In this document: in pieces, positions 6,197 through 49,025 of the stretch | How positions within the stretch are numbered: position 1 is the first letter of the stretch | How the letters are laid out: each line of letters opens with the position of its first letter | From: Oleiphilus messinensis | Lineage (GTDB): Bacteria; Pseudomonadota; Gammaproteobacteria; Pseudomonadales; Oleiphilaceae | NCBI RefSeq assembly: GCF_002162375.1 | Contig: NZ_CP021425.1 | Location: 5,382,501 to 5,446,500, forward strand | Reading direction: 5' to 3' | DNA: 64,000 nt | Notes under the pieces: model-generated | The model's database searches: none | Told to the model about the DNA's origin: nothing | Seen by the model: the letters and a program-made list of their open reading frames with translations, nothing else | Program-made: the position numbers and the translations under genes

Positions 6197-6929
6197 CCGA
6201 ACCGGTCTCCCCAACGCGCCAATCAAACGTATCTTCAACTCTGACGGCTTTTTTGCCTTTTGACTGTGCCACGATCTGAACCTTTTCAGGCACAAAAGCA
6301 TCTGGCAGCACAAGATCACCCTCTATACTTTGAAAATAGCGGAATCTAAATTTTATGCCAAGTTCCGTTTCCTCAGAGATATCCCGAAGTGGAAAAATTT
6401 CCTTTTTGCCGTGAATTTCTCCGATTAAATTGACGGCAACAACCCCGGAAATATAAGTGTTATTGTTTGAAACCTTTGCCAGCACAAATTTATATCCGAA
6501 GCGGCGTTCGTTATTGCTTGGGGATATTTCAACCTTGCGAATCTGAAGCAAGTTGTCGCCACTGGAGGGCGCCATGATATTTTTGTAAAACGTCACATCC
6601 CCTTTCAGCTGGGACACTTGGGACTCAAGCGATTGAATGGTCTGCAGTACATTTTTCCGGGCTTCTGTATCAATGGCTTGGCCCCGCTCAAAATTAGCAA
6701 GCTTTTGCCGCAATTCCATATCTGTTTTTTGATAAAGCTTGATACTGTTGAGCAACTGGGCACGTTGCTGTAGCGCTTCAGCATAGGCAAGCTCGACACG
6801 CCACTGCCCCATAAAAAAGCCCGCGCAGGATGCCATCACTGAAAAAACCAGCAGTATTGAAAAGCGCCGGAAACGGCGCCCTTTTTTGTACGGAACGAGA
6901 ATTAACTTCTCATCAGACAAATCTGACAT
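6174..6929 (-). CDS. DUF6776 membrane-anchored coiled-coil protein
   Basis: A 251-aa protein of the DUF6776 family. After a basic N-terminus (KKGRRFRRF) one transmembrane helix spans about residues 24-42. A predicted coiled coil follows (about 50-112), then a beta-rich C-terminal domain likely in the periplasm. The function is unknown. Its fixed place between argC and a bactofilin gene in Pseudomonas-like genomes, plus the overlap with the bactofilin reading frame, suggests it could anchor or position the bactofilin at the membrane; that is inference. Confidence 0.7.
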   Translation of the reverse strand: MSDLSDEKLILVPYKKGRRFRRFSILLVFSVMASCAGFFMGQWRVELAYAEALQQRAQLLNSIKLYQKTDMELRQKLANFERGQAIDTEARKNVLQTIQSLESQVSQLKGDVTFYKNIMAPSSGDNLLQIRKVEISPSNNERRFGYKFVLAKVSNNNTYISGVVAVNLIGEIHGKKEIFPLRDISEETELGIKFRFRYFQSIEGDLVLPDAFVPEKVQIVAQSKGKKAVRVEDTFDWRVGETGSDVGKKSG

Positions 6930-6957
6930 AAAATTGAGTTATCCGTAACCGATTGCG

Positions 6958-8001
6958 TTAAGGCAACACCGCTGGAAAATTCAATCCAGCCGTTTCAGCG
7001 TAGCCTAGCATGATATTCATGTTTTGGATCGCTTGACCTGCAGCACCTTTCACCAGATTATCAATTACGGACGTCACGATAACAACATTACTATCCGGCT
7101 GTCGATGCAATGCCAGCCGACACATGTTAGACCCTTTGACTGAGCGAGTTGCCGGGTGCTCTCCCGCCGGCAACACGTCAACAAAAGGCTCATTCTGATA
7201 CCGTTTTTCGAAAAGAGACTGTAAATCCTGATCATGAGAAACCAGATCAGCATACAGTGTTGCCTCGATACCTCGAACCATGGGCACCAGATGAGGCACG
7301 AAAGTCAGACCCACCGCCTCACCTGCAGCCTGAGTGAGGCCTTGTTTGATTTCCGGCAAATGTCGATGCCCGGATGCACCATACGCTTTAAAACTTTCTG
7401 CCGCTTCAGCGAACAATGAATCCACTTTCGCTTGTCGCCCGGCACCACTTACGCCGGACTTGGCATCGGCGATAATTCGTCGAGCATCAACCACACCCGC
7501 TTCCAACAGAGGCAACAAACCGATTTGTACCGCAGTGGGATAGCATCCCGGGTTCGCCACTAACGGACTACTTGCAATCAATTCCCGGTTTAATTCAGGC
7601 AAGCCATACACGGCACGATCCAATAACTCTGGGCAAGCGTGCTGTTGACCATACCAGGTTGACCATACCTTCTCATCCTTGATTCGAAAATCTGCCGCCA
7701 AATCAATCACGCGCACCCCGGCCGCCAGCAACTCGGGTACCGACTGCATGGCGACGCCATTCGGTGTAGCGAAAAATACAAGGTCACAATTTTTAAGTGC
7801 GCCATCGTCAGGATCGGAAAACTCCACATCCACATGACCACGAAGATTGGCGAATAGATCAGATACTTTTTTGCCTTTCTCCGACCGGGACGTCACCGCC
7901 ACTACTTCCGCATTGGGGTGAATCGCAAGCAGGCGCAATAGCTCAACACCGGTGTAACCAGTCCCGCCAACAACTCCTATACTTGCTTTCTTATCAGACA
8001 T
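6958..8001 (-). CDS. argC: N-acetyl-gamma-glutamyl-phosphate reductase
   Basis: NADPH-dependent reduction of N-acetylglutamyl phosphate to the semialdehyde in arginine synthesis. The N-terminal Rossmann motif [15 protein letters not shown] and the catalytic cysteine C153 in NPGCYPTA are visible, as is HRHLPEI further on. Length 347 aa matches the common type 1 family. It begins a same-strand series with the DUF6776 and bactofilin genes 28 bp downstream, and is divergent from the ClC gene. Confidence 0.96.
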
Positions 8002-46733: not shown

Positions 46734-47375
46734 ATGAACATTCAAAGCCAAATAAAACCTGATATTCTGTATTTTGATGAAGATATCGTCGTCACCAATA
46801 AACCCGCCAATCGTTTATCTGTACCGGGCCGAGACCCGACACTACCGTCCAGTATGTATACGCTGACGTCCGATAGTTTCGGTGAGCTACATGTTGTCCA
46901 TCGTCTGGATTGCGAAACCTCAGGTATTATGGTGTTTGCCCGCAACAAAGAAGCGCTACGAAATCTGAGCAAACAGTTTCATGACCGGGTAACCCGAAAG
47001 CGCTATATCGCCGAAGTGTATGGAGACCCACTAAAAGCGGCGGGTACCATCGAAATCCCTTTGATTTGTGACTGGCCATTTCGCCCTCGGCAAAAAGTCG
47101 ACTATGTTTATGGTAAATATGCCTGTACTCTGTACCGCAAAATCAAACCGGGGTACGCAGGTGCACGACTGGAACTCACCCCTGTAACAGGCCGCTCCCA
47201 TCAACTAAGAGTACACATGCGAATGCTGGGGCACCCCATTCTGGGTGATGCGCTCTATGCTCATCCAGCAGCAAAGGTGCAGGCACCTCGTTTGTATTTA
47301 CATGCCAGCCAATTGGAATTCAAGCACCCAACAAATGGCACATTGCAGCGCTTTGAGTGCGCAGCACCGTTTTAA
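46734..47375 (+). CDS. RluA-family pseudouridine synthase
   Basis: 213 aa. The catalytic aspartate lies in HRLDCETSGIMVFARN, and the RSHQLRVHMRMLGHPILGD segment is conserved. No S4 domain precedes it, as in RluA and TruC themselves. The target could be 23S rRNA or tRNA. It is divergent from the DUF2971 gene and followed by the regulatory region of the large RNA. Confidence 0.9.
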   Translation: MNIQSQIKPDILYFDEDIVVTNKPANRLSVPGRDPTLPSSMYTLTSDSFGELHVVHRLDCETSGIMVFARNKEALRNLSKQFHDRVTRKRYIAEVYGDPLKAAGTIEIPLICDWPFRPRQKVDYVYGKYACTLYRKIKPGYAGARLELTPVTGRSHQLRVHMRMLGHPILGDALYAHPAAKVQAPRLYLHASQLEFKHPTNGTLQRFECAAPF

Positions 47376-47431
47376 TACCCAGCGCCATTCATGGCGAAGA
47401 CAGGACAATGTAAGACATTCGCCTTTTTTCT

Positions 47432-47449
47432 TGTGAGATATTTCCTACA
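47432..47449 (+). promoter_or_regulatory. Distal GacA/UvrY-type binding site
   Basis: TGTGAG-ATATTT-CCTACA matches the GacA/UvrY palindrome (TGTAAG-N6-CTTACA, or the E. coli form TGTGAG-N6-CTTACA) at 11 of 12 arm positions of the latter. It is centred about 200 bp before the predicted RNA start. The same 12-mer TGTGAGATATTT recurs on the minus strand at 47484-47495 with a poor second half. A GTAAGACATT direct repeat flanks the site (47410-47419 and 47455-47464). Confidence 0.65.
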
Positions 47450-47566
47450 TTTGCGTAAGACATTACCGCCACGTGCTATGCATAAATATCTCACACGAAA
47501 ACCAAGCACCCACTACCTAATTGATATTTATAGTTTTTTATTAGACATAACTGCCTAAAAAGCAAA

Positions 47567-47584
47567 TGTGCGAAATATCCCACG
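47567..47584 (+). promoter_or_regulatory. Proximal GacA/UvrY-type binding site
   Basis: TGTGCG-AAATAT-CCCACG is a looser match to the same 18-bp palindrome, centred about 64 bp before the predicted start, the distance at which GacA sites sit before rsmY/rsmZ. The likely -10 is TATATT (47628-47633), with no good -35, as expected for an activator-dependent promoter. Confidence 0.55.
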
Positions 47585-47639
47585 ATAGATGATGAATCCT
47601 GTCACAATTTCGACATGTATGAACTGCTATATTTAACTT

Positions 47640-48259
47640 CGTCAAGGATGACAGGGAAAAGGAAGCGGCACTAGGACTGTATCCTCACACGGATTAGAGG
47701 GGAAGCATGGAAAAAATGGATTTTTAGCTTAAGGGAACCCTTAACACCCCGTTAAGGCACCGCTCAAGATGAGCGAAAAGGAAATGGATTAGGAATTTCA
47801 GGGATCAGAAACTTCAGGATGATCGCGGTCAGGAAGGCTGCCAAGTCAGGACGACTACAAGGTCGGGAAGACTACAGGGTCAGGAAGACCAGCAGGGAAT
47901 TTGCGCACAAGGACGAACGGCGCACAGGGATGACAACACAAGGAAGACTGCTCAGGGATAGTGAGCATCGGGATACGGAACCTCCCCTGAAAGGATTCGG
48001 AAAAGGACTCGAGCACTGGATTGCTCGACATGACAGGGTAAAAGGAACTATACGGGCTACGGAACGGTCCAGGTAACTAACTCTCCCCCCACGATTGAGT
48101 TAATTTCAACGTCGACCATGGATTATATCGGGGTTGCGGAAAGCCTCGATGCCAGGAAGCGAACAAAGAAAACCGGACACGGGACGGATACCCGCTCAAG
48201 GATGATAAAGACCTATTCCAAATAAGGGTGGCCTACTATCGGGTTACCCTCTTATTTTT
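47640..48259 (+). ncRNA. CsrB/RsmZ-like RNA, unusually long
   Basis: About 620 nt with roughly 38 GGA triplets on the plus strand against about five on the minus strand (about nine expected by chance). Many are in the CsrA-binding form AGGA or GGGA. Several sit in hairpin loops: TCGAGCA-CTGGAT-TGCTCGA (48009-48028), GGTC-AGGAA-GACC and GCTCA-GGGATAG-TGAGC. An intrinsic terminator ends it and GacA-type sites precede it. No convincing reading frame exists inside. The RNA should titrate CsrA/RsmA. E. coli CsrB is 369 nt with about 22 sites, so this is notably larger. The exact 5' end is inferred. Confidence 0.8.
48221..48259 (+). terminator. Rho-independent terminator of the CsrB-like RNA
   Basis: AATAAGGGT (48221-48229) pairs with ACCCTCTTATT (48246-48256) with a two-base bulge, followed by a run of Ts (48255-48260). 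The 3' arm overlaps the stop codon of the convergent methyltransferase gene, so the structure may also end that transcript. Confidence 0.75.
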
Positions 48260-49025
48260 TCTCTCCAGCACAATAAATCCTGACCCGGTTAAACTCCTCA
48301 AACTCATTCAAGTCTGGCCAGGTTCGGCAGGTATATACCTCTTGCAATTCATAGCCCGGCGCACTTAAATTTTTGATTCGGGAGTCAGCTAATACAACCT
48401 GTTGCGCACGGGAACAAAATGCATCCAGAAATGTCAGATTTTCCCGGTCATACAACACATCTGCTGCCAAAATAACATCAATTTCCCCCTGCACTTTGAA
48501 AAAATCACATTCGGTTTTCAGTGATACGCCATTTAATGCCGCATTCACTTTCGCGGCCAATAATGCATCCTGATCCAAATCACATGCAATGACTTCAGCG
48601 GCCCCTGCCAGTGCAGCAGCGATACCCGCAACTCCGGATCCTGCACCAAAATCAAGACAACGGCGCCCCCTCACCCACTCTGGATGATCCATTATGTAGG
48701 ATGCCAAAGCTTGTCCACTGGCCCAACAGAACGACCAATAGGCGGGCTCGGCAACAACGGCCTGAGCCTCATCATGAGTGAGCGGGCCATGCATGACATC
48801 CGGATCAAACAAATAGAGACTCAATTGAGGACACCCTGGCAGGGAATACGGTTTCAAATCCGCTCTCGGCAGTGTAACGCGAATCGCATCCAACAAAAGC
48901 GACAGATCTGTTTTTGCTTCAGTTTGTCTGAATTCCCCAACCACGCCGTGACTACCCCTAAGAATTAATATTGCGCAACACAAGCCCGGCACCTTAACGT
49001 ATTCACGGTGGGAGCTCAACACCAC
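48252..49025 (-). CDS. Protein-lysine/small-molecule methyltransferase, ETFKMT-like
   Basis: SAM-dependent class I methyltransferase. Motif I is LDFGAGSGVAGIAAALAGA, followed by VIACDLDQDALLAAKVN and a post-motif DVILAADVLYD. The domain resembles the nicotinamide N-methyltransferase-like/METTL20 group, whose members modify proteins. The N-terminal 28 residues from the GTG at 49025 look unlike the family; a GTG about residue 28 is an equally good start. The stop lies inside the RNA terminator. Confidence 0.78.
   Translation of the reverse strand: MVLSSHREYVKVPGLCCAILILRGSHGVVGEFRQTEAKTDLSLLLDAIRVTLPRADLKPYSLPGCPQLSLYLFDPDVMHGPLTHDEAQAVVAEPAYWSFCWASGQALASYIMDHPEWVRGRRCLDFGAGSGVAGIAAALAGAAEVIACDLDQDALLAAKVNAALNGVSLKTECDFFKVQGEIDVILAADVLYDRENLTFLDAFCSRAQQVVLADSRIKNLSAPGYELQEVYTCRTWPDLNEFEEFNRVRIYCAGEKK

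Follow-up and report, generated by a model that had tools for sequence, protein, structure and literature searches.

Introduction

The RNAs of the Csr/Rsm class that have been described differ in size, in the number of their GGA motifs and in their genomic setting. E. coli CsrB, with 369 nt, is an array of GGA hairpins that ends in a terminator and is presumed to be under UvrY/GacA control, and Pectobacterium RsmB has a length of 479 nt. The number of GGA motifs has been given as 22 for CsrB, 14 for CsrC and 25 for Pf1, one of the three CsrB-like RNAs (Pf1-Pf3) of the marine bacterium Pseudoalteromonas fuliginea (PMC11882849). CsrA is reported to work best with sites placed 18 nt apart and to tolerate distances of 10-63 nt (PMC3856055). 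In Pseudomonas, RsmX, RsmY and RsmZ have GGA in loops and an 18-bp GacA palindrome upstream; the site is TGTAAG-N6-CTTACA, placed at -75 for rsmY and at -196 for rsmZ (PMC4950607). Furthermore, two RNAs of the marine alkane degrader Alcanivorax dieselolei, CsrR1 and CsrR2, with nine and six GGA, have been predicted to sequester CsrA; they lie at the hfq 5'UTR and beside a ferredoxin gene, respectively, and links between CsrA and alkane genes have been predicted in Alcanivorax (PMC9788540).

The candidate RNA described here lies in Oleiphilus messinensis, whose genome is a single contig of 6,379,281 bases, within a stretch of 64,000 nt (G000:C1:5382501-5446500) that was analysed as a whole and is called the window below. 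The main text of the O. messinensis ME102 genome paper (PMC5847120) has no mention of CsrA, csrB, GacA, a small RNA or an ncRNA. Similarly, in the Csr/Rsm literature on Marinobacter, Hahella and the Oceanospirillales, the RNA is undescribed in the titles and abstract openings of the matches listed, a set in which subscription papers are mostly not included.

Compared with E. coli CsrB, the predicted RNA has the same kind of GGA-hairpin array, the same median GGA spacing (14 nt in both), a terminator and presumed UvrY/GacA control, but it is longer and carries more sites (~620 nt and 38 GGA), as the preliminary description of the locus had stated, and it has its own gene neighbours and a conserved 5' domain. 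A pseudouridine synthase gene lies near both, upstream here and, as truC, downstream of E. coli csrB, which is probably coincidence. With the Pseudomonas RNAs it shares the upstream palindrome and GGA in loops, but the Rfam models of RsmY (RF00195) and RsmZ (RF00166), of 121 and 133 positions, are unmatched here. Pf1-Pf3 are likewise CsrB-like and marine but, compared by their description only, they are three separate RNAs with fewer GGA; CsrR1 and CsrR2 resemble it in host lifestyle and predicted role, and differ in GGA number and genomic position.

The locus and its GGA content

The predicted RNA lies between a pseudouridine synthase gene and a convergent methyltransferase gene (Table 1). 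Over 47640-48259 (620 nt), 38 GGA were counted on the plus strand and five on the minus strand, exactly the approximate figures of the preliminary description, and this is the maximum of the window. Elsewhere in the 64 kb, the richest 620-nt stretch holds 16 (plus) or 21 (minus) GGA, and the mean over both strands is 8.3 per 620 nt (sd 3.4). Single-letter shuffles of the region contain 16.2 ± 3.3 GGA and reached 38 in none of 5000 trials. When a first-order chain was used, which keeps the GG and GA content, the expectation rose to 25.7 ± 4.5 and 38 was reached in 37 of 5000 trials; a large share of the excess is therefore GG/GA richness itself, and the strand bias and arrangement are more telling than the total alone.

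Table 1. Features of the locus on the window (position 1 is its first base)
Feature	Position	Strand	Remarks
RluA-type pseudouridine synthase gene	46734-47375	+	upstream neighbour of the RNA
GacA/UvrY-type palindrome TGTGAGATATTTCCTACA	47432-47449	+	all 8 key bases; centre ~-200 from inferred start
Second palindrome, degenerate	47567-47584	+	7/8 key bases; weak; not general in relatives
-10-like element, TATATT	47628-47633	+	read from sequence and alignment of relatives
Predicted non-coding RNA	47640-48260	+	~620 nt, 38 GGA; ends inferred
Hairpin 1, GUCA-AGGA-UGAC	47641-47652	+	GGA in loop; 91.3% of cells paired, little covariation
Hairpin 2	47683-47700	+	GGA in loop; the family's covarying helix; both-side changes in 5/6 pairs
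Helix 3, AAGC/GCUU	47703-47730	+	encloses GGA motifs; 100% paired, one-sided changes only
Expanded GGA array	47740-48205	+	lineage-specific; not alignable with long RNAs of genus g8
Tandem 17-nt hairpin units	47827-47894	+	a single GGA per unit, at exact 17-nt intervals
3' tail element GACCTATTCC	48210-48219	+	similar in most aligned relatives; profile search weak (E 0.006)
Intrinsic terminator	48225-48260	+	hairpin and T-run
Methyltransferase gene (PrmA/lysine-methyltransferase type)	48252-49025	-	convergent; usual neighbour of the RNA

Upstream palindrome and the host regulators

The sequence motif that would tie the locus to GacA/UvrY is the upstream palindrome, read on the eight key positions of TGTNNG-N6-CNNACA. 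It was counted in 77 distinct loci of 85, after the window's second copy (L001) and loci that duplicated another over the first 200 nt had been dropped. It is present in 76 of the 77, with all eight key bases in 70 and with seven in 6; many of these loci are close Marinobacter relatives, so they are not independent. The single locus in which it is missing, L039, is cut short upstream. In the flanks of the same loci (354,117 bases), no site combines all eight key bases with a score of at least 10. In 75 of the 76 loci, the distance from the start of the box to the model start, itself ~15 nt before the inferred +1, is 164-175 bases. In the window this distance is 193 bases, longer by about two helical turns. 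A consensus scan of 47380-48320 for a sigma-70-type promoter found none.

Genome-wide, TGTNNGANATNTCNNACA occurs five times, one occurrence being the box of the window, and its reversed-pattern control not at all; the loose core TGTNNG-N6-CNNACA shows no enrichment (70 occurrences vs 78 for the reversed control). Other perfect GacA-type palindromes lie at G000:C1:500204, 1296962 and 2725744 (L098, L099 and L101) and are possible further GacA targets, judging by the motif. No GGA-rich RNA was found beside these three sites or beside L102; at all four, at most 5-7 GGA per 200 nt were counted. In addition, a possible second, small Rsm-type RNA with 6 GGA in 128 nt lies on the minus strand at L100:565-692 (G000:C1:2191764-2191891), with a palindrome TGTGCGATATATCCCACA at L100:750-767, upstream of a comEA-like frame. 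This small candidate had no Rfam match and no match in 76 other genomes, and its stability is ordinary.

The host genome encodes one CsrA (Pfam, 92.6 bits) and a single response regulator that passes the UvrY/GacA cut-off (320 vs 280 bits). UvrC follows the predicted GacA gene, and gacA-uvrC is the usual gene order. A single CsrA is present in six of the seven genomes with long RNAs.

Rfam families and the conserved 5' domain

The preliminary description had named the CsrB and RsmZ covariance models as a check on the locus. CsrB (RF00018) is indeed the best family there, at 47702-47988, but with 23.9 bits (E 1.7e-4) it falls short of the gathering score of 71 that sets membership, and at E up to 10 this model also has matches in 8 of 14 control genomes. 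PrrB_RsmZ (RF00166) and RsmY (RF00195) have no match at the locus, and the weak matches of the genome to them lie elsewhere. A scan of 13 related loci gave two matches at E <=0.1, both sub-threshold: CsrB in L016 (27.5 bits) and RsmZ in L050 (25.1 bits). On the features that can be tested in sequence, the predicted RNA is a member of the functional Csr/Rsm class, and by cut-offs it stands outside RF00018, RF00166 and RF00195.

The RNA begins with a conserved 5' domain; the GGA array that comes next is variable, and a 3' tail leads into the terminator. The three 5'-domain helices were named by eye and then counted in 40 distinct sequences, the structure being chosen with the sequences in view, and 94.5% of their cells are paired, vs 88.2 ± 0.6 in shuffles (0/500). 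Changes on both sides of a pair were found in 45 cells vs 14.8 ± 4.2 (0/500), all in helix 2; counted by pairs (5 vs 3.6; 49/500 shuffles) or by pair types (14 vs 12.3; 56/500 shuffles), the covariation is not extreme. Little variation is present in helices 1 and 3, and they prove little. When hairpin 2 was tested separately in 56 sequences, 311 of 336 cells were paired vs 276.0 ± 4.2 with the strands shuffled. In the window RNA, four of the six family pairs form. RNAalifold on the first alignment returned a poor consensus. In the array of the window RNA, TRF called a repeat at 47827-47889 with 3.7 copies of a 17-nt unit. The 3' tail element of the window RNA has the form GACCTGTTCC in many relatives.

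Predicted fold and display of GGA

In shuffles that held GGA in place and permuted the remaining letters (200 shuffles), the number of GGA in apical loops was compared with that in the predicted fold. With stems of at least 4 bp, 19 of the 38 GGA are in such loops vs 8.6 ± 2.7, a number that no shuffle reached, and with stems of at least 5 bp the count is 9 vs 2.8 ± 1.6 (0/200); with stems of at least 3 bp it is 28 vs 22.1 ± 3.5 (16/200). The placing of GGA in hairpin loops in the preliminary description is thus upheld in silico. In the same 4+ bp test, E. coli csrB gave 10 vs 6.3 ± 2.4 (19/200). Among 12 family RNAs tested, this enrichment is clear in the window RNA and L003 only; the other long RNAs lack it, for example L020 (13 vs 11.3) and L006 (8 vs 10.8).

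The predicted unpaired probability is 0.59 for the G's of GGA vs 0.24 for other G's in the window RNA, 0.81 vs 0.28 in csrB and 0.23 vs 0.21 in the yqcC mRNA used as a control. GGA exposure is lower in the window RNA than in csrB (mean 0.65 vs 0.80), and in its MFE fold many GGA have some of their bases paired, with 16 of 38 wholly unpaired vs 16 of 22 in csrB. The whole molecule is of ordinary stability (z -0.78; 4/20 shuffles as stable). The terminator that had been noted was located, and the region around it (48210-48262) folds at -15.7 kcal/mol (0/200 shuffles). The terminator tail (48252-48260) takes in the stop codon of the methyltransferase gene, and the terminator may serve both genes.

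Distribution in relatives

A BLAST search with the RNA as query gave matches in 26 of 77 related genomes, its own included, and beyond the self match the similarity is confined to about the first 125 nt; a search against plasmids gave no match. An iterated profile of the first part of the RNA was present in 85 of 97 loci, two of them the window itself, with 70 of the 97 having been recruited through the neighbouring gene. Of the loci from other genomes, 25 (L003-L027) were recovered through the RNA alone; a convergent methyltransferase gene lies 262-729 nt past the model start in 20 of them, and the remaining five have none within the ~1.5 kb examined. Among the other loci, L041, L065 and L077 have the methyltransferase at a distance of 0.9-2 kb.

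A covariance model of the first ~115 nt, built on 40 rows, matched 66 of 117 related genomes, some matches being its own training sequences. All 66 are among the 73 genomes seen as the same family; there were no matches in 28 genomes of the order's other families and none in 16 further genomes. The seven same-family genomes without a match belong to genera g3 (G002, G016) and g4 (G003, G017, G023, G029, G035). These g3 and g4 genomes carry 1-5 CsrA-family matches each, with five in G017. Extra copies of the 5' domain were seen at G010:C1:4015497 and 1681161, at G040:C1:1285496 and 1285797 (a close pair) and at G043:C1:3464863. The GacA-type palindrome is absent from the extra copies L148 (G010) and L150 (G040), and the third G010 copy, L149, is a covariance-model match that the profile search did not find again. 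The RNA family spans Marinobacter, Hahella and relatives of Oleiphilus, usually in a form of ~190-270 nt.

Length series and growth of the array

In some loci, e.g. L005, L006 and L012, the terminator picked automatically was an early T-run, and the ends of L006 and L005 were set by hand for the length and GGA counts. Most relatives are short, at ~190-270 nt with 12-18 GGA: Marinobacter RNAs are mostly ~220-270 nt with 14-16 GGA, two Hahella loci have ~195 nt with 12 GGA, and individual values (nt/GGA) are 190/16 in G005, 195/13 in G013, 217/15 in G018 and 232/15 in G015. Intermediate RNAs were found in G010 (~356 nt, 20 GGA) and G044 (337 nt, 21 GGA). The long RNAs are that of the window (620/38), L020 (646/44), L006 (633/35), L004 (523/24), L011 (513/24), L016 (512/31) and L013 (442/25). 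No such forms (~440-650 nt, 24-44 GGA) were seen outside the window RNA, one sister genome and one related genus (g8).

The architecture of the long forms differs. The window RNA has one copy of the 5' domain followed by tandem 17-nt hairpin units. In L006 of the sister genome (G006:C7, ~6722-7370), four tandem 5'-domain copies are present in one RNA of ~633 nt with 35 GGA. Past the first ~170 nt, the interiors of the window and g8 RNAs have no similarity except a weak match in the 3' tail (E 0.006; best shuffle 0.44), which gives a shared origin of these expanded interiors no support. The long interiors may represent one old expansion with divergence or separate expansions.

A tree of the methyltransferase, a single gene, was built from 31 of 90 loci with a methyltransferase match, and L013, which has no match, is absent from it. 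All six of the seven long RNAs that could be placed fall in one clade together with L028 and L029, with support of 92/90, which is below the star threshold of the tree tool. No RNA was found at the L028 and L029 loci. Since the RNAs measured in other genera are shorter and the long ones sit in one clade of this single-gene tree, the long form looks derived.

Alternative explanations

The best explanation of the locus is, very probably, an RNA of the Csr/Rsm class of ~620 nt that is driven by GacA and sequesters CsrA, and whose middle has grown into a hairpin array. The proposal of a CsrB/RsmZ-type high-capacity CsrA sponge in the preliminary description is in this sense supported in silico, by the GGA hairpins, the GacA-type palindrome, the terminator, the conservation in the family and the presence of CsrA and GacA. 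Its further suggestion of a fused ancestor, from which shorter rsm RNAs would derive, fared differently. Concatenation does occur, in the fourfold 5' domain of L006, but the window RNA has a single copy of this domain, the RNAs measured in other genera are shorter, and the placeable long RNAs share one clade; with distribution and the single-gene tree (clade support below the star threshold) against it, this ancestry was rejected as highly improbable.

Among the competing accounts, it is unlikely that the RNA is a sponge whose useful CsrA binding is confined to the 5' domain, with a middle that expanded by neutral drift of repeats and contributes little capacity. Drift is common in tandem repeats, the window and g8 interiors cannot be aligned and the other long RNAs have no GGA-hairpin enrichment, but the interior of the window RNA holds GGA in loops far above shuffles, and the GGA density of the long forms (4.5-6.7 per 100 nt) is near that of the short forms (~5.2-6.9, with ends at the full terminator). 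A protein-coding or leader region with GGA from codon use is barely credible. It could appeal to the longest frame on the strand of the RNA, an 85-aa ORF at 47819-48076, and to a 112-aa open frame in L006 (as long in 8/300 shuffles), which is presumed to be a by-product of the tandem repeats of L006. The 85-aa frame, however, has no match in a Pfam search and is equalled in length in 32 of 300 shuffles, the longest ORFs of five long g8 relatives have 19-59 aa, and conservation falls on the RNA helices, the upstream palindrome and the terminator. A coding gene was accordingly rejected, in line with the earlier remark that the interior has no credible gene, and the many GGA on one strand belong to a region with no conserved frame.

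Proposed mechanism and significance

In the sponge mechanism proposed here, active GacS/GacA would switch the RNA on through the 18-bp palindrome ~200 bp upstream. The RNA is predicted to show GGA in small hairpin loops and single-stranded linkers and would sequester dimers of the single CsrA, and mRNAs repressed by CsrA would be freed, as expected from the known class. The 5' domain and 3' tail correspond to those of the family-wide RNA of ~190-270 nt, with a middle that was probably expanded, partly by tandem duplication of 17 nt. Capacity per transcript could reach 38 sites, or nominally up to 19 bridged dimers at two sites per dimer.

A more tentative suggestion, possible but short of probable, is that evolution can tune Csr capacity in this family through the length of one sponge RNA, with modules added in Oleiphilus and its neighbours within one transcript rather than only as new csr RNA genes. 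There might be two or more routes to such growth, including duplication of 17-nt hairpins in the window RNA and, in G006, the repetition of a ~125-nt domain to four copies. If true, the smallest members of the family, at ~190 nt, would offer 12-16 sites and the largest, at ~645 nt, 44 sites, a stepwise series set against one CsrA (in six of seven long-RNA genomes).

To summarize, Csr RNAs are difficult to recognize from sequence, and here a GacA-type box anchors a family that extends across the Oleiphilaceae. The family is not called by Rfam cut-offs in the window and the 13 related loci scanned, its marine hosts include hydrocarbon degraders, and some of its RNAs carry almost double the GGA of E. 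coli CsrB. With members of graded length, the family lends itself to testing whether the response of a global regulator is set by the valency of its sponge.
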